This document shows, one piece after another, positions 1 to 51,260 of a stretch of 64,000 bases of DNA. This stretch comes from Paramacrobiotus metropolitanus. Lineage: Eukaryota; Tardigrada; Eutardigrada; Parachela; Macrobiotidae. Made by a program: the position numbers and the translations under genes. The notes below the pieces were generated by a model. It was not told the origin of the DNA. It was given only the letters and a program-made list of their open reading frames with translations, and did no database searches. How positions within the stretch are numbered: position 1 is the first letter of the stretch; each line of letters opens with the position of its first letter. Location: contig NW_026570228.1 in assembly GCF_019649055.1 (NCBI RefSeq), positions 1,488,001-1,552,000 on the forward strand. The letters run 5' to 3'.

Positions 1-2
1 CA

Positions 3-656
3 AAATCGGCGGGGTCATCATCAGGATCATTGGCAAAGCTGAGGATCGACGAGACAGCGACAGCTGACCCAACGGACTCGACATCCTCCCAGAAAAGTAG
101 CGGTACACCGGCAAAGGAGGCTACAGATTACATGTTAGGGCCGGCATTGGACGTGAATAATCGTACATGGAACGAAGTCCAGAACGCGCTCCAGATCATC
201 CGAGAAAAAGAGATGCTTGGTACAGACCTGAAGAGACAAGTGGCAATAAATTCGAACGGAAGGTCGTCACTTAACATGACTGAACGAGCTCTGAAACGAG
301 CATATAAGGAAGGAAAGCTGGGATGTAAATACAATAAGGACAACAAAGTCGTTTACTACCTTCCGAAGCAGGGTCAGGAACGAACGCCCAGATTGAAAAT
401 GGAATTGGAGGCCTGGAAGATAGCCATCACAGACGTGGCTTTGGACGCCATCGGCGGTACAAATGGAGCGTCATGGAACGACCTTTCGAACTTCATGGCC
501 GTCAATTATGAATTGGGAGAGTTGAATATTGAAAGCGATAAGGAGTGGATTAAGAATGCCGTTGAAGCCTTGATCTCGGACGAAGTGCTTCATATTCAGC
601 CAGATGGCCGAATCGATTTTAAGCCGTATAAACCATCGACGAAAGAATCCGAGTGA
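3..656 (+). CDS. ORF1 of unknown element, 5' partial; tandem winged-helix-like protein
   Basis: The frame is open to the left edge of the window, so the true start lies outside; the visible part is 218 codons. After a Ser/Gly/Thr-rich start there are two segments of similar shape, roughly codons 54-115 and 145-210. Each has a helix-rich stretch with a conserved Trp followed by a short beta-hairpin-like end (residues VVYYLP in the first, HIQPDGRIDFKPY in the second). This resembles winged-helix or linker-histone-like folds, so a nucleic-acid-binding role is possible. No family was recognised. It has no introns and is the first of three plus-strand ORFs; a 12-bp hairpin lies 11 bases after its stop. 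The function is unknown and the fold assignment is inference from pattern only. Confidence 0.6.
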   Translation, partial: KSAGSSSGSLAKLRIDETATADPTDSTSSQKSSGTPAKEATDYMLGPALDVNNRTWNEVQNALQIIREKEMLGTDLKRQVAINSNGRSSLNMTERALKRAYKEGKLGCKYNKDNKVVYYLPKQGQERTPRLKMELEAWKIAITDVALDAIGGTNGASWNDLSNFMAVNYELGELNIESDKEWIKNAVEALISDEVLHIQPDGRIDFKPYKPSTKESE

Positions 657-987
657 ACTAATATGAGTGTAATATGCAGCGAGTAATGAACCCTGCATAT
701 TACAGAAAAAGCATAAAACAGTTTAAAACGAAAGCGAAAAGTGTTACGAAAGGTCAACTGAAAGCAGTACTAGGACTAATAGAAAAGGTCACAGTAGTCA
801 GAAAGTGCTGATAACGTGAGAAAGGTCACCACGTTACAGTGATAGAAAAGGCAGCAGGAGCTAGGAAAGTCTCAGCTCAGTAACGGAATAGGCGTAAAAA
901 TGATAGAAAGCCTTATATTATGGAAAGGATTAACGTCGAAAAGGTTACTATGATGGATTGTTTTATAATTGCAGATTGAAGAGAAAG
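657..987 (+). other. Spacer between ORF1 and ORF2 packed with stem-loops
   Basis: This 331-base spacer holds several perfect stem-loops: 668-704 (12-bp stem, 13-nt loop, just after the ORF1 stop), 774-799 (5 bp), 812-836 (7 bp, 11-nt loop) and 858-878 (5 bp, 11-nt loop). The loops of the second and third carry AAAGGTCA (784-791 and 821-828); the fourth carries the related AGGAAAGTCTC. A further octamer copy is at 749-756. The arrangement suggests structured RNA or protein-binding DNA between the ORFs. There is no ORF of note in it. Confidence 0.6.
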
Positions 988-1494
988 ATGGCACAAAAAG
1001 GTCAAGCCCCTTCTAAACGTTCGGGAATGGCGGCAGACATCGATCAGTTTACGGGCTATAATCCAAAGTGTCCGGACTGCTTAAGGAACAACAAAAAGGT
1101 TGACAAGAAATTCCCTTGCTACACTTGTATTCACAAGCTGGAAGACCCACATACCGTCACGCTTGTTGGGATCATGGAAGCCAAACGTGGGAACTTGGAC
1201 GTTTTTCGAAATCTCATAAGCGCAAGAAATTACGGCAGCATCCCAGTAGAAGAGCGAATGCTATTCGAAGATCGTTATCGAGAAGCGATCCGGAACAACG
1301 AACCTGGTTGGGATGACACCTTGGAGCCGTTGAAGTGTCCACAGACAGACGCGTATCGGAAGAAATTCGAAGAGGACCAGGAGAAGATGCGAGTTCAGCA
1401 AATGGAAGACGAACTCCGCGCGAAAATTAATGCGGAAAATAAGAGGCAAGTGAACAGGCTGCACGAGAGGCGTTGCCCAGTACGTCGGGTTTAG
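988..1494 (+). CDS. ORF2 of unknown element; small CxxC-CxxC protein
   Basis: The frame is open from 958, but the first ATG is at 988 and has a good context (AAGATGG), giving 168 aa. A likely zinc-binding site lies near residues 26-44: CPDC, twelve residues, then CYTC. The remainder is highly charged, with a long Glu/Lys/Arg-rich helical and possibly coiled-coil segment near the C-terminus and a basic tail. No family was recognised. The stop at 1492-1494 lies only 14 nt before the first ATG of ORF3. Such spacing is unusual for separate nuclear genes and fits a polycistronic or virus-like arrangement with reinitiation. The ORF3 frame is also open upstream into ORF2 from at least 1473, so frameshifting cannot be excluded. 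Confidence 0.6.
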   Translation: MAQKGQAPSKRSGMAADIDQFTGYNPKCPDCLRNNKKVDKKFPCYTCIHKLEDPHTVTLVGIMEAKRGNLDVFRNLISARNYGSIPVEERMLFEDRYREAIRNNEPGWDDTLEPLKCPQTDAYRKKFEEDQEKMRVQQMEDELRAKINAENKRQVNRLHERRCPVRRV

Positions 1495-1508
1495 CTGCAC
1501 CCACGGGC

Positions 1509-3677
1509 ATGGCCAGCCTTAATGAAGACGAAATGCAACTCGTACGACAGTCGCTTATCATTCAAATTGAAACGTTAACGAAAGATCCAGCTGCTATGTC
1601 AGACGAGATATTCAAAATGCTGTTGCGGGAGAAGAAACGATTGCAAGACGGGTTCGCGCCGGCACCATACATAAAGAAGGAAGTCGAAAGACGTATGGAT
1701 GACCTACGTAAATCTCGCCGAACCGAAAGCGATGTGCTGCAAGCACTCAGAAATTTAAACGGGACGAAGGTTTGTTCGACCTCAGTCGCCCCGCATAGAG
1801 AAAGGTCACGCGGACATTCACGTGAACATGAACGGATTTCGGAACGACGGAGCGAAAGGTCACGTGAACATTCTCGTGAAAGGACACGCGATTACCACAG
1901 TGAAAGGTCACGCGAACGCTCCCGCGACCGAGATTACCGTGGCGGAAGAGGATGGGTGCGCCATGGAGACGAAGTTACGGAAATGAGTATTCAAAAACGG
2001 CGTGCGGAGACGTTCCGTGCAGAGCCTGAAAAACAAGGGCATCAGGTGCCGATGGGAGTTGCATTCCGGAATCGCAATGTCAGAATGTCAACACCTGAAA
2101 GGTCATGGGACAAAAGACGCGAACATACGCGAAATCGAACGCCTGACCCACAGGATAAAAGATGGCAACAGAGAGCTGCATTTTATGCGACCTTTGACTC
2201 GGGCGCAAGTAAAAGGTCATCAAGCACTGAACGAGAAGATTCACCCCCAAAGTATCAGCGGGTGGAGTCAGTGGTTCACGTTGTGGAACCAATTGTGAGC
2301 GTCGTACAAGAAGACGATGCGATGGAAGGGACCAGCTCAGTTGTCGAAACCACGTCTCAAGAGAATGTGACTCACCGACGAAATGTGATCTTGGATAGTG
2401 ACCTTCAACCGGCTTCATCGACGAGTAATGAACCGTCGCAGCCAGTATCAGCAGACCGACGTGAACTGGAAGGTCAAGGCGAACCAGATAATCGTCGCCA
2501 AGGTGACCAGCGATTAAACTCCAGATTTAATAACCGACAACCAGAAAGTATCGACATGGAATACAAGACGACTGATATTGATGAACAAACGGTCGAAATT
2601 TGTCGATACTTTGGACTTGAGCCGGATTCGGTTGAAGCCAACAAAATTGGCACAATTCTGAGACAGTTGAGCCAATTCCTACTTGACTCGGGTTATGCGA
2701 GAGAGATTAAACAAGGAGTGGAACAAGGACTTTTCCGTCGGTTATTCATCCACCGCGATTCAGTACGGGACTGTTATCTCCCTATCAGACGGAATGGGCT
2801 ACACAGTTTGGTGGATTTAAGTTTATTGGATGTACCGCTGGACACAACTGACCCAATCGGGATGACACAGTTCTACTACAGAGACTATCCCGAACGCCAA
2901 GAATACGTGGCTCAGTTTGTTCTACGACATGTGAATCCAGCTTTCAAGTTGCTTGCAGCAAGGGCGTCGATAGGACTACAGGTGGATCCTAAGGACTATG
3001 CCGCAAAAAGGATGGGGCAAAAGGTCTTCGCTGCGAGACTGGCACATTACAAGACACAGAACCAATTGGTGTCTAATACCATGAAGGACGACATTCCACC
3101 GTTCTTCCGAGCTCATGTCGCTAAATTGGGACAACCGATGGAACATATCAGCATAGCGCATACGGCTCGCAAGGCGCTGAAAAAGTGTAAGACACGAATG
3201 GAAAAGGGCAACTTGACACAGCGCCACGCATCCCAAGTTGAAGAAAGGATTAATAAGATCAAAGATTCTCTGGGAAGTGACTACGTTGAACCGGTGGACG
3301 GAATCGAAACTTACATTGATGAATTCTTAGTGAAGAAAAGTGACCGTCGCCCAGACCGTGCGCCTAACCAGATGGGACGACGCGGCATACGAAACCAACA
3401 GCTGCGGGACAATCTCGCCGACGTGCAGCGTCGATTGGCGGAAGACCCTGATAATCGAAGACTGCGACTCGAAGAAAATGACGCACGCCATCGACTTGAG
3501 GCGGTTAAGCGAAGTCGCCAAGGTAAAGGTCGTGGCCAGCGCGAAGTTGACCCGACAAAGGTCATGGAAGTTGACTCAACGGAACCAGTTGACCGAACTT
3601 CCGATCGAAACCAACCGGAAAGCGCTAAGAAACGCCCGCCGAGAGATGGCGAGGGCGATTCAAATGAAATGGAATAG
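1509..3677 (+). CDS. ORF3 of unknown element; large protein with an Arg/Ser/Glu-rich repeat region
   Basis: The frame is open from 1473; the first ATG, at 1509, gives 722 aa without introns. Residues about 1-90 are charged and helix-rich. Residues about 95-150 are an RS/RE-rich tract (repeated ERSR, HSRE and ERTRD) like the RS domains of SR splicing factors. Residues about 150-360 look disordered and acidic/Gln-rich. Residues about 365-600 look globular, with the only Cys and many aromatic residues, for example in the segment GMTQFYYRDYPERQEY. The C-terminal 110 residues are again Arg/Asp/Glu-rich and coiled-coil-like. No known domain was recognised. Several ERS codons coincide with copies of the octamer AAAGGTCA found outside the coding region too. 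The stop codon lies inside an 8-bp hairpin stem (3673-3702). Confidence 0.65.
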   Translation: MASLNEDEMQLVRQSLIIQIETLTKDPAAMSDEIFKMLLREKKRLQDGFAPAPYIKKEVERRMDDLRKSRRTESDVLQALRNLNGTKVCSTSVAPHRERSRGHSREHERISERRSERSREHSRERTRDYHSERSRERSRDRDYRGGRGWVRHGDEVTEMSIQKRRAETFRAEPEKQGHQVPMGVAFRNRNVRMSTPERSWDKRREHTRNRTPDPQDKRWQQRAAFYATFDSGASKRSSSTEREDSPPKYQRVESVVHVVEPIVSVVQEDDAMEGTSSVVETTSQENVTHRRNVILDSDLQPASSTSNEPSQPVSADRRELEGQGEPDNRRQGDQRLNSRFNNRQPESIDMEYKTTDIDEQTVEICRYFGLEPDSVEANKIGTILRQLSQFLLDSGYAREIKQGVEQGLFRRLFIHRDSVRDCYLPIRRNGLHSLVDLSLLDVPLDTTDPIGMTQFYYRDYPERQEYVAQFVLRHVNPAFKLLAARASIGLQVDPKDYAAKRMGQKVFAARLAHYKTQNQLVSNTMKDDIPPFFRAHVAKLGQPMEHISIAHTARKALKKCKTRMEKGNLTQRHASQVEERINKIKDSLGSDYVEPVDGIETYIDEFLVKKSDRRPDRAPNQMGRRGIRNQQLRDNLADVQRRLAEDPDNRRLRLEENDARHRLEAVKRSRQGKGRGQREVDPTKVMEVDSTEPVDRTSDRNQPESAKKRPPRDGEGDSNEME

Positions 3678-3702
3678 TGTTGACCTTTAGGATCACACTA
3701 TT
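3673..3702 (+). promoter_or_regulatory. Stem-loop over the ORF3 stop codon
   Basis: A perfect 8-bp stem (AATAGTGT with ACACTATT) encloses a 14-nt loop that begins with TGACCTTT. The ORF3 stop TAG (3675-3677) lies in the 5' arm. This is the first reverse-oriented copy of the octamer. A role in termination, 3'-end formation or RNA recognition is inference. Confidence 0.55.
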
Positions 3703-3863
3703 GAAAGGACGTCTACGGCATTTGTCGGTACGTCACAAAGATGAAAATGGTGTTGTATAAAGGGCGTGACACGTGACATGTTAACATTAACTGTATTTGT
3801 GTATTTGTTGTTTGCAGCGTTTATAGCACAGAATTGCCTAAAAGAAATCATGTGGAATATCTA

Positions 3864-4313
3864 TTGGGGTTGAAATTGATTCGGTCTATAAAGCCGGCCC
3901 CAAGGGAGTTAGGTTACGGCAGTTAGCCGGCTCTCCTCTCTAAGCGACTCAGTGTTATAAATGCACAAGAGAAACTACGGTAATCAAGCCGGATCTCTTG
4001 AATACGAAACGGGGCCACAAGCGGCGAGAAGAGAAAGACAACAGGTGGAACATTGATGAGGTTAACTTAATGCGGCAATTAGCCGGCCTCATTAGAGTTG
4101 TTACGGTAAACTATGCCGGCACTCTTTTAAGCGATTCAGTGTTAAAATTAAAACGAGAAAACTACGGTAATCAAGCCGGATTTCTCGTACTAACGTAAGC
4201 CACAAGCGGCGAACAAGAGTCAAAGATTTAAGGTGGAAATTTCATGGGGTAAACTTAATGCGGTAACTAGCCGGCCCCATCAGAGATGCTACGGTAAACT
4301 TGCCGGCACTCTG
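3864..4313 (+). repeat. Array of eight related hairpins in 190-bp tandem repeats
   Basis: Eight hairpins follow each other: 3864-3903, 3904-3937, 3966-4000, 4054-4094, 4094-4125, 4153-4188, 4244-4280 and 4281-4313. Each has a variable outer stem, a conserved inner CGG...CCG pair with a 7-9 nt loop, and short conserved linkers. They form a three-hairpin module repeated about 2.7 times with a period of about 190 bp. Outer stems differ but stay complementary: ATGAGG/CCTCAT against ATGGGG/CCCCAT, CAAGAGA/TCTCTTG against ACGAGAAA/TTTCTCGT, and AGAGT/ACTCT against CAGAG/CTCTG. The second hairpin is the weakest (4 bp plus a G-T pair). The pattern indicates selection on structure, most simply in an RNA. 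No known RNA family was recognised. Confidence 0.75.
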
Positions 4314-4860
4314 GCCGCTCGAGGCATACTGAAGTTGGATGTGCGACGGAAAGGTCAAACTGCAAGTTTTACCAGGGAGGCAAGCAAAGAAGTGCTTGAA
4401 AGCCGCAGAAAATTGGCTAAGTTCCTCCATGACCTTTAACGGAAGTTTTGACGAGTGGGATGACCTTTGGGATCATCAATTGCCCAACAGAGTCACCGTA
4501 TCGGAATTCAAGTCGCATGACCTTTGGGACCATTAACCCAAAATGAGTCGCACATCTCAACGGATCATCTCAACAAAGGATGACCTTTACCAGGGAGGAA
4601 GCGAACTACGCTTGTCTTCATGACGTCCCTCCATGACCTTTATGGATCTCATTTTGAAGTCGTACAATTGATACGCACCATATTCCAAAGATGAAGCAGT
4701 ATTCCTAAGTCGTACTTGATACGCACCTGATTCTCAAAGCGGATTGTGATGAAAGTCGCATTACGGACGCGCGAACTTGCTCAACGGAGCAGAATGGGCC
4801 AAAGTGCGGAAAACGGTGGACAGGACCTGTGACCTTTACGAGTCAGAAATGGAGGATCCT
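4314..4860 (+). other. 3' non-coding part of the unknown element
   Basis: No convincing ORF. It carries one AAAGGTCA and six TGACCTTT copies, some within small hairpins: 4459-4477 (GATGA/TCATC), 4575-4588 (AAAGG/CCTTT) and 4630-4646 (TCCAT/ATGGA around GACCTTT). The phrase ACCAGGGAGG recurs at about 4370 and 4590. The element-like composition ends near 4860, where AT-rich DNA begins. Confidence 0.5.
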
Positions 4861-5534
4861 AGTCTACATTTTGATTAATACTTTTGTTGATCTGTTTAAC
4901 TGTTGATCTGTTTTCTGATAGTATTTTATAATTGGATCTCTTTATTCACATCGTATTAAATGGAATTGTGCCTTATGGAATTGATGTGATATGATAAAAT
5001 GGATTAAGAGAATTTGATGTTTTGAGCACGCACAGACACCGGCGACCGTCGTCTTCTCGTGGATTCGAGTGTGTCCAGCCTCACAGGAGCTCGGCATCCC
5101 CCCAGAGGCATGTGAGACCGGGATCACTAGCGTTCACGTCAGTGGCGCTACGCCTGTGGCGCTACGCCTTAGGATTACGTGTCTGTGTTGTGTCTCTTCT
5201 GATTGGCTTGCGTTCTGATAGTGGGCGCGGCATAGCACGTGCTGCACAGCGTTGCACGCTGTTGAATTGGCTCTACGTTTTACGATCGAGCTGCGCCGAT
5301 CAGTGTTGATTTTCTGTTCTCAGACTTTCAATATTAAAAGTCAGCGATTTACGGTGCGACGTTTGTGTTTCCGCATAGTTCGCGATCCATATCGTATCGC
5401 TCACTCCACGGGATCTATTCCGTTTAGGTCTCCGTATCTGGATCACTGCTGGATCTAGCATTAGAGTCCAATCAAACAATGCGAAATGCCCAGTAATACC
5501 AGAAAACAGAATGAGTAAGAACTACTAAGAAGTA
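4861..5534. other. Intergenic, no gene recognised
   Basis: No supported gene. The only structure noted is a perfect 14-bp tandem duplication (GTGGCGCTACGCCT at 5142-5155 and 5156-5169) in a locally GC-rich stretch. Short open frames here show no family resemblance. Confidence 0.5.
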
Positions 5535-6077
5535 CTGTAGCCGCCCGCACAAGTTAGACCACAGAGTCGGTATACCGGAAAAAAGCGCACCAAATATACC
5601 TACTCTAACCAGGCAGAATGCACGGTTTTGTAAATTCGTTCTCAGACGGTCTATTAATTTTTAAATTCATAATTTTGCTGAAGATATTGTTTTTATGAGC
5701 ATCTAAAGTTAAAAGAAGCAAAAAAACTTAGGGCTCGGATCGATGCTGATGGATAAACCTGGTTTGTTGTGGTTTTTGGGGTGCCCCTGGCGGGTGGGGG
5801 GGGGGGTAGCGATTCAGCCTTTGCACTTTGCAGTATTCTGTACGGTGATGATTCTTGCGAGATGAACGTGAGAACGGAATAGTTCCGGGAACTCATAAAA
5901 CGAAGAAGATGTGACTTTTGATTTAATCATTCAGTTGCTGAAGGAAAAGTAATATTATTGACAATCAATATTGCTTCGTACGACAGCCGTGTAATTTGCC
6001 CGGTTAGAGTAGGTATATTTGGTGCGCTTTTTTCCGGTATACCGACTCTGTGGTCTAACTTGTGCGGGCGGCTACAG
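5535..6077. mobile_element. MITE with perfect 76-bp terminal inverted repeats and TA target duplication
   Basis: Positions 5535-5610 and 6002-6077 are exact reverse complements (76 bp, starting CTGTAGCCGCCCGCACAAG). TA flanks both sides (5533-5534 and 6078-6079), as in Tc1/mariner-type insertions. The 391-bp interior has no coding capacity and includes a G-run near 5800. The identity of the TIRs suggests recent activity or gene conversion. It sits just downstream of the TNK2 stop. Confidence 0.85.
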
Positions 6078-6242
6078 TAATCAAAAAACCCCATCAATTT
6101 AATTATAAAAAGAAGCGTAAAATTCTGTTCTAATAATAATTACTAATTCATCGAGATTTATTACCGAAGGAATAATAACCAACAACTTGTGCAAGAAAAA
6201 AATCAAAAAAAATAATCACCTTTTCTTATAAAAATCCACCGT

Positions 6243-9200
6243 TCATGTTCCGGACAGCAGCGCCTCACCGGCCCGTTCCACATCCCACTGACAGTTCTCC
6301 AGCACCTTCCGGCACACCGTCTCCGGCGCGATATCCAACCGCAGCAGCCGTTCCACTTTCAACGCCGCCACGGCCTTCTCCACATCGAAATGATGCTTGT
6401 GCAGCACCGCCTGACAGTTCTTGGCCGCTTCCCCGGGGACGGCGTACTGCACCTTCCGCACCAGATCCTCCAGCACCGATCCCGTGTTCCCGGCCGCCGC
6501 GGGACTCTTCCCGGGGGTAACCTGCAGCGGCGTCACGCGGGCCACCGTAGGCTTATTCACCGTGGCGTAGATTGGCGCCACTGTCTCCTTGGTCAAGACG
6601 CCGCGTTCCAGGTGGCTAGTGTCGAAGGGATCGTCCAGATCGGTGATGGGGACGGTTTTGATGATGTGCTCGGATTTAAAGTGATTTTTGGGTGGGTTGG
6701 CGGGTTTGGTAGGTGGCAGGAGCAGCGCGGCGATGTGCGGCGGGATAACACCCGGGGAGCGGGAGACCGGTTGGGATGGAGCGGCGAAAACTGGAGGCGG
6801 AGGTGCCGGACGCAGAATTTGGGTTGCAGTATTATAGTAGTCGGGAGAATATAACGCAGTAACTAAAGGAACGCAAAAAATCGATCAAAAGCATGCTTCG
6901 CTTCCACTACGGCGTTGATTAACCCGGTAAATGATGTAATAGCACCAAAATTTAAAAAAATGTTAAATTAAGAATCCGTCACGGAAAATTACAACATATG
7001 GCTTTCATTTGTTTTAGCTATTCAATATTTGAGTTTTAAGTGTAAAACGGCATTTTGCTTGTACAATGTTGAAATCAATAAAGTTTTTACATATGGTTAT
7101 AACATTATAGGGACATACCAACAGGAACAAGCCAATGCACTACAAACAACGCCTCAACATAAAGTATCACCTAACTACTCAAACATGATCGCAAATTCGC
7201 AATACAAACTCAATGTGAGCCAGATATATGAAAATAACAAGACTGCATGCATCTTTTCATCTTTCTGCATTTTTTACTATTGATTTCAATGTTTTCAAGA
7301 TGTAGGATTTTATTCAATTTTCAAAAACACCGAACTTACCGGTGGGCATGACCGTTGACTGACCGCTCAACATTCCCGAATTACCCGGCGGCAGGACATT
7401 TCCGTACGTCTGCGGTCGCTGCGGCAACCCAGGCGTGGAACCACTGGAAAGAGTACTGGTTTTGCTTCCTCGCAGATCACTGAATGAGTAGTAGGGCGGC
7501 GCAGTGGGATAGATACTCGGGGATGCGCCCCATTCGTTCGCTGGCGGCAGATTGAAATAACTTGGAAGCGGCGAAATGTGGGCCAAATCGTTGGAGTATA
7601 ACGGCGAGGACTGCAAAAGCCATGATTATATCACAGAAAAAATAATTTTATTAAATGGGAAGATGCGAATCTACTCTATGGATCAACGTTATCTAGTACA
7701 CTTATACCTGACCGAAAAACAACCTTTATGTACACTACAGTTTGCAAAAACAAATTCTTTATAACACAGAATTCGAAGAACTTTAAATTTTGCTGACAGT
7801 GAATATAACACGTGGAAAGTGCTTTGGTATTCATAAAAAAACTCACAATCAGATGTTTTACACTGACTGCTCAATGCGGTATATTGTTACCGCAGATTCG
7901 TAGTACAACGGCCTGATGGATAACCAGTCTGTCCGCTTCGGTGAACGAGTTCCCGAATTCGCCGTACCGTACCCTTCAACTAGTAATCATCAAACAAAAC
8001 TTTTTCGCTTCACTTTCAGCTATTTTTAACCACTCCCAGAAAGCAATTGTAAAATTACGGTTGATTCTCAACACATATCGTTTATGCAGCTAAGAGATGT
8101 TTTCCTTCACTGACAAATACAGTACGAACGAATTTCGTAAAATGAGACTGAAAAACAAACACAAAACATAAAAACTGCTTAGCAAAATTAGCCGTCCTAC
8201 TATTCCTACACTTGATGATTAATTCCCGGCTCAATCTACAGCTACAGTTTTATATCTATGTGTTTACATATATTTATATATATTTTCTAAAGGACTTAAA
8301 ATGTCAGCCTAACCAATGATCATGGTCCAGCATCTAACTGCCGAAAATACCTGAGATCCATAATCCGAGCTGACCAGATTGCTCTCCGACTGGGAATTCA
8401 ACCGGGTTAGTCCCGGATGCAACACATGAGCATCATCCGACAGATCAATCAGGGCATCGCGCGGCGGGGATGAGGACGGGACACTGGAGGCGCCCCGTGC
8501 ATTCCGTCGGCTGTCGGGCGGTTTCGGCAATGTCACAGCCTGGAGATCGAGGGGAGTGGGCGCGGCGGAGGCGGCGGGCGATCCCAGTTCGCCCAGCAGA
8601 TCCGCTGCGGGAACGGGATTGCGCAGGAAGATCTCGTCAATGACCGCCGGACTGCCGAAGGTCTTACTCGGATCCGTGTCACCGTGGCCCGTGTGGACGA
8701 AGGAATGCCGCAGCTACGAGATAAAATAAGGATGCATACAGATCGCAAAATTGGGAAATTAACTGAAGAACTATGTGTCTACTGATTTTTTCAAACAGCG
8801 CTTCAGAGCTGTTGTCAAATGAAACACCTCAGGTGTGCCTTGTGCCCCAGGAGAAGCAAAAGAGGTTGGTTGTTTTTTTATCAAGTAACTCGGCGGTTGC
8901 ATTTTTTGCAACCCGGGTGGCTATTTTTTGATAATCAGAGGATGGAATTATACGAAAACAGCATTTTTCACAACGTAACGTTTCACTTCGCGCGTCGGAC
9001 ATTATTAACAAATCCTCCACCATAAAAATTCTCCCGTAGTGAGATTTATTGTAGAGCAATGGCTATCAACGTAAAGGAGCTTAAAATAATAAAATTGTTA
9101 CCATTTTAATATACATTTTTTTACTATTAAATAGCAAACTGACAACTACCATCTTTTTCGTCATCCAGACTCTGATAATTATTTTTTAAGCAGCATTTCT

Positions 9201-49094: not shown

Positions 49095-49925
49095 AGACTG
49101 GACAGTGGTGCTAGATAGGTCACCCATTTAGAACTTAGCAGGCGCTGCTCTATTTTGTTCAGTAATATTGCAGTTTGGTCATGCGTTCACCTAACGGGCT
49201 CTGTGTATGGATAGCTTTGGTAGCTCGGTCACCCACCATACCTAACGGGATCTATGCAAAGGACAGTACTGGTAACTCGGTCACTAGATCACTTAACGGA
49301 GTTTATGCGCTGGACAGTAGTGCTAGCTCGCTCATTAGATCACTTAACGGAGTTTTTCGTGCACTGGACAGTATTGGTAGCTTGATCACCCATCTACCTA
49401 ACGGGATCTATGCACTGGACAGTATTGGTAGCTCGGTCACCCATCTACCTAACGGGATCTATGCACTGGACAGTATTGGTAGCTCGGTCACCCATCTACC
49501 TAACGGGATCTATGCAAAGGACAGTACTGGTAACTCGGTCACTAGATCACTTAACGGAGTTTATGCGCTGGACAGTAGTTCTAGCTCGCTCATTAGATCA
49601 CTTAACGGAGTTTTTCGTGCACTGGACAGTAGTGGTAGCTCGGTCACGCGTTCACCTAACGGGCTCTGTGCACTGGACAGTATTGGTAGCTTGATCACCC
49701 ATCTACCTAACGGGATCTATGCACTGGACAGTATTGGTAGCTCGGTCACCCATCTACCTAACGGGATCTATGCACTGGACAGTAGTGGTAGCTCGGTCAC
49801 TAGATCACTTAACGGAGTTCGTGCACTGGACAGTAGTGGTATCTCATTACTCTTTCACCTAACGGGTTCTGGGCACTGGACAGTGGTGGTAGCTCGGTCA
49901 CGTACTCACCTAGCGATTTTTTGAC
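49095..49925. repeat. 51-bp minisatellite, block 1, with an open 17-aa repeat frame
   Basis: About 15 units of 51 bp (a few 54 bp) containing GGTAGCTCGGTCAC and CACTGGACAGTATT. Because the period is a multiple of three, one frame stays open from ATG 49181 to 49924 (247 codons) and would encode a 17-residue repeat ending NGIYALDS. No upstream exon, signal or known domain supports translation. Near-identical adjacent units suggest recent turnover. Confidence 0.85.
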
Positions 49926-50260
49926 GCACTCAATCACTAGGTGAGCGACTGACCGAGCTCAACCTATCCAGTAAGAAATATCGCTAGGTAAGGAGAAAAA
50001 TCGCTAGGTGAGGATGTGACCCTGCTACAACTACTGTCCAGTGCACAGAGCCCGTTAGGTGAGCAAGAGCAAAGCCCGCTCGATGACTCACTCACCTAGA
50101 AATTTCGCTCAGTGGGCAGTAATGGTGTTTCGGTCACTCACTTGTCTAGTGATTTTTCTTACTGGTCAGTGGTGGTAGCTCGGTCACCCACTCATCTAGA
50201 GATTCCGCTCAGTGGTTGGTGATAGTGTTTCGGTCACTCACTCGTCCAGTGATTTTTCGT
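49926..50260. repeat. 51-bp minisatellite, inverted then diverged part
   Basis: About 49930-50070 carries the unit on the opposite strand (GACCGAGCT, then ACTGTCCAGTGCACAGAGCC). About 50080-50260 returns to the original strand with diverged units (TTTCGGTCACTCACT). It marks an inversion within the array. Confidence 0.7.
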
Positions 50261-50449
50261 ACTGATTTTATATTTGATATTTTTACATTTTTATATCGGT
50301 TGATTTTAAACGTGTTTCGAGCTCGGCAACACCGGCTGGAATGTTTGAATAACGCGAGTGTTTGAATAAGTACAATAATTTATTTATTTTTCGGTTTAAT
50401 TAGTGTGATAATTATGTCAATTGGTATTTTGTATTGTATCTAGGCAAAT

Positions 50450-50720
50450 ATTTCTAAGTTTCAAGGTGACCTTTAAGATGGGTTGGATCAATCTGGTCTT
50501 GATACCGGCTTGATACCGGCTCGATATTTTCATAAAAAAAATACATGCCGGCCACTTCTGAACTATCCCGGATCTAATGGCGTTGTCCGTTTTTCCAGAA
50601 GTTTTATGGTTATAGAGATCTCAAAACTATGGGGCACCGCGCGTAGTATAGATCTTGTACTTAATATATACAAGAAACCGCTGCGGCTTCGCCTTCGCGT
50701 TTCTTGTGAGCCACGGCCGC
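50450..50720. repeat. Dispersed repeat, copy A
   Basis: It contains AAGGTGACCTTTAAG, TACATGCCGGCC, CTAATGGCGTTG and ends with the CAAGAAAC/GTTTCTTG hairpin (50671-50706). Diverged copies lie at about 51480-51640 and 51850-52040, sharing the order CAAGGTCACC, GTGACACAGTTTCT, GAATCTAATGGCGTTTACAG. Confidence 0.55.
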
Positions 50721-50821
50721 TTTGAACAAATCATAGCATTTACAGTATTTCGGTAAATTGACTAAATTCACTAACTAGTTATTCCTTAATTAGTTAATTC
50801 CTTAGCAGTTATTGTAAAACA

Positions 50822-51260
50822 CTTTTTAGGTAAAGAGTCTAGCTCGGTCACTCACTCATCTAGGAATTTTATTCCCTGCACAGCGGTGGTAGCTCGGTCA
50901 CTCACTCACCTAAGCGATTTTGTTCACTGGACAGCGGTGGTAGCCCGCTCACTCACTCACCTAAGCGATTTTGTTCACTGGACAGCGGGTGGTAGCTCGG
51001 TCACTCACTCACCTAAGCGATTTTGTTCACTGGACAGCGGTGGTAGCTCAGTCACTCATCTACCTAGCGATTTTGTTCACTGGACAGTGGTGGTAGCTCG
51101 GTCACTCCACTCACCTAGCAATTTTATTCCCTGCACAGCGGTGGTAGCTCGGTCGCTCGCTCACCTAGCAATTCTGCTCACCTAGCGATTTATTGCTCGG
51201 TCATCACTCACCATGCGATTTCCTTTTGTTTACTGAAAAGTGGTAGTAGCTGGGACACTC
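50822..51260. repeat. 51-bp minisatellite, block 2
   Basis: About eight diverged units of the same 51-bp family, consensus containing CGGTCACTCACTCACCTAAG and TTCACTGGACAGCGG. A single-base insertion near 50985 breaks any long frame. A lone relic unit is near 58690-58740. Confidence 0.75.

Follow-up and report, generated by a model that had tools for sequence, protein, structure and literature searches.

A tandem array of bulged hairpins between the last reading frame and the 3' LTR of a giant, apparently Ty3-like retrotransposon in a tardigrade

Why should a short run of tandem repeats keep its letters paired while the letters themselves change? The question is raised by positions 3864-4313 of the window, by which we mean the whole stretch of 64,000 nucleotides that was analysed (G000:C8:1488001-1552000 of the 169.8-Mb assembly). 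The first-pass annotation had described eight hairpins here with a CGG-loop-CCG core, and had suggested that their structure is selected. All eight were found on the plus strand, with their CGG at 3882, 3917, 3978, 4073, 4104, 4165, 4261 and 4292, and they are called class A below. The inventory was incomplete. Two small hairpins of the form GCC-ACAAGC-GGC (B1 at 4014-4025 and B2 at 4199-4210, both on the plus strand) lie in the same stretch, and a ninth class A hairpin, H0, stands directly after ORF3 at 3708-3734 (plus strand), with the stem GACGT..ACGTC.

As seen in the alignments, a class A hairpin has an outer stem of about 4-8 bp, then 0-2 unpaired 5' letters and mostly a short GC-rich step. 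Its bulge is on the 5' side and is UA in most hairpins and AA, UG, GA or AG in some. In the core, CGG pairs with CCG or UCG, and the loop is short. Three of the plus-strand hairpins make up a subtype, A2, with a long 5' side loop: H1 (3864-3903, stem TTGGGG/CCCCAA), H5 (4056-4092, stem ATGAGG/CCTCAT) and H9 (4244-4280, stem ATGGGG/CCCCAT). The others, also on the plus strand, are H2 (3904-3937), where the 5' side loop of this copy carries a 2-nt insert absent from the other 51 aligned arrays; H3 (3966-4000, stem CAAGAGA/TCTCTTG); H6 (4094-4125, stem AGAG/CTCT with a UA bulge); H7 (4153-4188, stem ACGAGAAA/TTTCTCGT); and H10 (4281-4313, stem CAGAG/CTCTG with a UGC/GCA step and a UA bulge).

The units of the array are not independent, because part of it is a 188-bp duplication (Tandem Repeats Finder: 188-bp unit at 3941-4312, 2.0 copies, 81% matches). 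The paired change from ATGAGG/CCTCAT to ATGGGG/CCCCAT, which had been put forward as compensatory, is present in H5 and H9 as described, but it may partly be the product of unit exchange. Five sister copies (L056, L065, L067, L068 and L070) carry a 3864-type core in the unit at 4056, and L066 and L069 show a G-U intermediate. The array seems unlikely to derive from protein-coding sequence: the open frames across it are 84 and 81 aa long, and its copies differ by indels.

The array had been placed downstream of ORF3, and ORF3 (1473-3677, plus strand; 734 aa from a TTG, without a Pfam match) proved to be the final ORF in a very large LTR retrotransposon. This element is about 24.5 kb long, with an internal region of about 23.8 kb, and the array sits between ORF3 and the 3' LTR. 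The 3' LTR match spans window 5109-5465 (plus strand; TG start at 5111), and its 5' partner lies outside the window at G000:C8:1468957-1469319 (L024:957-1319). The two are 96.4% identical over 363 columns, and the positions of this match give the length of this copy. The LTR begins with TG, its end is not CA, and the element copies that were compared all stop near window 5465. At the position of the primer binding site, TGGTAGCAGAG adjoins the 5' LTR; it presumably fits initiator tRNA-Met. The flanks of the element, GTACA and GTCCA, were checked for a target duplication and agree in 4 of 5 letters.

Pfam was used to identify the coding domains. It gave a protease (PF13975, 6.3e-8, in L023), RVT_1 (1.4e-25) and RT_RNaseH (3.3e-34) in L009, upstream of the window, and Integrase_H2C2 (1.1e-20) and rve (1.3e-12), also in L009. 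The order protease, RT, RNase H, integrase is the one required for Ty3/Gypsy (Metaviridae). A gag-like ORF with a CCHC knuckle lies upstream, and the element as a whole reads LTR, gag-like ORF, protease, RT, RNase H, integrase, further ORFs, array, LTR. Judged by domain order and Pfam matches, it looks like a Ty3-like LTR retrotransposon. Among the ORFs after the integrase that were scanned, none rose above the Pfam cut-off; an accessory ORF at L009:7058-8653, the end of which is window 30-656, has a weak linker-histone match just below the curated cut-off (E 0.00026). A comparison of ORF3 with solved structures returned just four matches (E 0.26-0.67), which were taken as chance. The C-terminal part of ORF3 has 114 matches in the genome, 28 of these at 50-56% identity.

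The element is multicopy, with 116 array candidates in the first genome search, 40 of which were scored, at 93-100% identity. There were also 113 scored RT matches on many contigs; many of them belong to long reading frames uninterrupted by stops, of up to 3124 aa, and on this account the clade looks young.

Copies of the element's own family were used to ask how well the pairing is kept. Alignment A1 holds 52 distinct full arrays with ten hairpins and 89 pairs; it leaves out L001, L002, L003 and L006 (places also in other loci), L084 (2 bases) and six partial matches (L057, L058, L063, L064, L071 and L072), and L055 has no array. In A1, 98.5% of 4616 stem cells pair, compared with 31.0-48.7% for partners displaced by 1-3 columns. 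The observed number of paired cells was reached by 0 of 500 shuffles, and so was the observed number of double-changed cells (0 of 500). One pair of H5 is A-U in 45 of the 52 arrays, G-C in 5 and G-U in 2, and one pair of H7 is A-U in 43, G-C in 8 and uncompensated in 1. Double changes fall in merely 2 of the 89 pairs, which 224 of 500 shuffles match, and further pair types are matched by 458 of 500; covariation within the family is not strong, because the copies are too alike. Stem changes without compensation, which the first-pass annotation had named among the observations that would speak against selection, do occur as a minority: pairing is lost in 1.5% of the 4616 cells, and columns 48-70, drawn as a pair in the structure, fail to pair in 25 of 51.

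The variation is distributed unevenly over the array. In the 178 paired columns the minor-allele fraction is 0.021; it rises to 0.054 in the 127 columns of hairpins that do not pair and to 0.076 in the 145 columns of linkers, so that linkers are 3.7 times more variable than stems. The strands differ as well. The plus-strand RNA folds with z = -2.51, and 0 of 100 shuffles are as stable, whereas the minus strand gives z = -0.93, with 15 of 100 shuffles as stable. A structure on the opposite strand was set aside on this near-shuffle fold, together with the lack of minus-strand matches to the covariance model R1 described below.

More distant relatives carry the comparison further. A total of 19 3' regions were fetched, 11 of them from the group with 50-56% ORF3 identity, and all 11 of these keep class A hairpins, with two in 6 and three in 5 instead of nine. 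The sister families hold the bulge and the CGG/CCG core, and their outer stems differ yet mostly pair; between families, the number of class A hairpins ranges from 2 to 9. A pattern search of the genome gave 301 matches, compared with 0 for the reversed pattern, and revealed a sixth family with an RT 87-88% identical. The 3' region of this family (L085) has six class A hairpins with the outer stems GUGCU/AGCAC, GGGG/CCUC, GGAAG/CUUCC, GAGUGU/ACACUC, UGAG/CUCA and GAGG/CCUC. By eye, these stems are nearly all different and every one is paired.

The pairing across units and families was scored in several sets. The hand-picked sets are biased to good stems and include none of the long-loop H1, H5, H9 type: A3 (15 hairpins) has 94.4% of cells paired against 36-48% when slid, with double changes in 5 of its 12 pairs (reached by 0 of 500 shuffles), and A6 (25 hairpins) has 94.4% against 29-49%, with 6 of 10 pairs double-changed (3 of 500 shuffles). 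Their automatic counterpart is a core-anchored set of 80 distinct hairpins, the pattern of which also leaves out the long-loop H1, H5, H9 type. Here all 4 outer pairs form in 47 of 61 distinct flank pairs, while 2000 permutations averaged 28.1 full outer stems and never exceeded 37. A looser set, which includes some false, overlapping cores, has stems of at least 5 bp in 67 of 92, compared with 42% for swapped flanks and 23% for shuffled flanks.

The first-pass annotation had proposed searching with a covariance model, and one, R1, was built from A3 without the sixth family. Over 14 sources and 104 kb it gave 43 matches up to E 5, all on the plus strand. Those under E 0.2 all lie in arrays or the leader; the weaker ones include one in coding DNA (E 0.54) and three in or near an LTR (E 0.64). 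In the 64-kb window R1 gave 5 matches, all inside the array, and did not report H0, H1, H5 or H9, so class A is not one tight model. On the sixth family (6 kb), its six hairpins rank 1-4, 6 and 7, and three of the six have E <0.05. Taken together, copies, units, families and strand support the suspected selection on pairing, and place it on the plus strand. On the pairing kept in A1, A3, A6 and the core-anchored set, a neutral tandem repeat was rejected.

Further structure surrounds the array. Downstream, Domain II (4338-4556, plus strand) is formed by the stem GATGTGCGAC (4338-4347) with GTCGCACATC (4547-4556), which encloses a GGGAGG..CCTCC hairpin. It is present in the RNAalifold consensus of nine sequences, and its support is conservation, since its pairs are mostly invariant and the covariation term of the whole fold is unfavourable (+4.36). 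A hairpin lies across the ORF3 stop codon (3674-3701, plus strand), where the sixth family has, by eye, another complementary stem. Between ORF3 and the array, a splice-acceptor-like stretch ending in ..TTTGCAG (3797-3817, plus strand) has its CAG in 9 of 9 aligned sequences. A strict acceptor scan flagged no site, 3817 included, and just two donor-like sites. Other acceptor-like stretches stand before later ORFs, at L009:3770-3815 and window 955-990, and one is followed, by eye, by a donor-like AAGGTAAGC. Together, these stretches hint by eye at spliced subgenomic RNAs.

What might the array do? We infer that it belongs to a structured 3' UTR in the sense RNA of a giant Ty3-like clade. We give an even chance to the reading that it tags the long RNA of the element for leaving the nucleus unspliced, or for packaging. 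Each class A hairpin would be a putative protein-binding site, made of a free outer stem, a 5' bulge and a CGG/CCG stem. A protein of the element or of the host would read the bulge and core, because the letters are fixed there and the outer stems are free, and the sites may act together, because the number of hairpins varies. The acceptor-like stretches hint at spliced RNAs and thus at a need to export the unspliced one: an RNA of 24 kb that holds several ORFs and acceptor-like sites would have to leave the nucleus unspliced and enter particles, and the array would work like a retroviral RRE or CTE. ORF3 as the binding partner is a guess. As an SR-type protein it is weakened by its RS/SR dipeptides, which are near shuffled counts (17 compared with 15.0 shuffled, and 9 compared with 11.8 in the sixth family), and by its ERS words, which come largely from the repeated motif AAAGGTCA discussed below.

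An unlikely alternative is that the hairpins are Gag packaging or dimerisation sites, with the CCHC-knuckle Gag binding hairpins of the leader and 3' UTR and so selecting genomic RNA for particles. The knuckle in the gag-like ORF is consistent with this, and so is the 5' leader of this copy. R1 detects one class A hairpin there (L024:1718-1751, E 6.1e-7); a second is found by pattern alone, and both GCC-ACAAGC-GGC and the variant ACC-ACAAGC-GGT are present. Six further leaders of this family were compared, of which 5 have the first class A hairpin and 4 the second. By pattern, however, class A hairpins occur in 0 of 8 leaders of the 50-56% group, while 11 of 11 of its 3' regions keep two or three. 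The place kept across families is for this reason the 3' end, and the leader as a conserved place is weakened. Spliced RNAs would also carry the sites of the 3' UTR, which argues against their use in selecting genomic RNA.

That host proteins bind the array and govern translation, stability or polyadenylation of the element's mRNAs is rather improbable. The last ORF is indeed followed by a stretch of 1.4 kb that contains the array and, downstream of it, more conserved structure, but nothing points to any named host factor. It is very improbable that the array has no function and is a recent palindrome duplication, its pairing kept through short divergence, unit exchange and shared descent: the 188-bp duplication, the exchanged units, the 93-100% identity of the 40 scored copies and the few double changes within the family fit such a history, but in the sixth family almost all outer stems are different and each is paired (by eye, and scored in the core-anchored set and A6), slid controls drop to 29-49%, hairpins persist at 50-56% ORF3 identity, and linkers vary far more than stems.

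The preferred reading, export or packaging of the long RNA, has partial parallels in known systems. The CTE of Mason-Pfizer monkey virus is located between the last gene and the 3' LTR, and the array has the same position. Rev multimerises on its RNA, the RRE, and the several sites here might allow the same. CTE and RRE, which get unspliced RNA exported through NXF1 or through an adaptor and CRM1, are structured RNA on the element's own transcript, as the array would be; the likeness is one of position alone. CTE and RRE are each one extended stem or branched domain, whereas the array consists of separate small bulged CGG/CCG hairpins in variable number, is without an Rfam match and has a putative partner protein. 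The mechanism of CTE and HIV-1 RRE export is treated in the part of PMC10309623 that was consulted. According to the same part, Cer1, an LTR retrotransposon of C. elegans, needs its CERV protein for export of its gRNA, so an animal LTR element can solve export with a protein of its own (PMC10309623). Cer1 resembles the present element as an animal LTR retrotransposon with an accessory protein, and its gRNA export is a controlled step; the difference is that those sections describe no cis hairpin array for Cer1 (PMC10309623).

Other large or Ty3-type elements were compared in the same way. The Burro elements of planarians are giant and Gypsy-like, with an internal region of up to 25 kb (PMC6431247, in part), and share with this element the very long internal region, the Gypsy-like pol and the extra coding capacity. 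Burro has one huge polyprotein with apoptosis-related domains, whereas here several ORFs follow the integrase, and the portion of PMC6431247 at hand mentions no hairpin array. The yeast Ty3 genomic RNA is also that of a Ty3-type element with a cis-acting RNA structure, but in the available text of PMC11381356 a palindrome close to the 5' end is the candidate site of its dimerisation, and no tandem 3' hairpins are described. Transposons of two other tardigrades are treated in PMC11071193, of which an excerpt was used.

The first-pass annotation had known of no RNA family of this form, and a search of window 1-7000 on both strands with 4227 Rfam covariance models agrees, with 0 matches at E up to 5; a known Rfam family was discarded on this basis. 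Judged by titles and the starts of abstracts, a literature search found no paper on such an array, and a search for Paramacrobiotus with retrotransposon found none either. Cis-acting RNA hairpins of retroelements are known in kind; what is new, as far as these searches reach, is this motif, with its tandem expansion and its location. The array offers an RNA element whose pairing is backed by comparison, for which a model can be used in searches and nature supplies dozens of variants, and it resides in an LTR retrotransposon of one of the longest kinds. It is a concrete candidate for how elements without a known Rev/CTE system export and pack very long RNAs, and because families differ in how many hairpins they carry, they amount to a natural experiment on multivalent RNA recognition.

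A second repeated signal runs through the element. The 8-mer AAAGGTCA/TGACCTTT has 95 copies in it, where about 1.2 are expected (counted over window 1-5465, L009:1-8000, L023 and L024:957-5000): AAAGGTCA occurs 67 times and TGACCTTT 28 times, with shuffle means of 0.96 and 0.26. The other 58.5 kb of the window have 3 of each. In the ORFs listed, AAAGGTCA is present in all three frames (10, 18 and 24 of 52), and for this reason it looks like a signal at the nucleotide level; we take it to be the NBRE site of nuclear receptors. The sixth family (L085) has AAAGGTCA 9 times and TGACCTTT 6 times, and neither was found in L073, L078 or L081. A bolder idea, which we hold tentatively as one possibility, is a modular RNA code, in which a bulged hairpin repeated 2-9 times after the last ORF would be read by an element protein that moves or sorts RNAs of >20 kb. 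Site number would evolve like a dosage dial, and the 8-mer, in two orientations and 95 times, would be a second code.

Several other features were seen along the way. Outside the element, the reading frames at window 6.2-7.6 kb are presumably ACK/TNK2-like, and Pfam gives a UBA-like domain alone for them; they suggest an animal host. The SL1 RNA family gave no hint of the host, its control being positive in 0 of 14 genomes. Separate tandem arrays lie at window 49187-51181; their units measure about 50 bp, and longer periods reach 258 bp. The 5' leader (L024:1320-1860; L088-L093) has repeated TTCAGCGAA hairpins with stems altered on both sides (GTCTTC/GAAGAC, GGCTTC/GAAGCC and GGATTC/GAATCC), a set that seems to covary.
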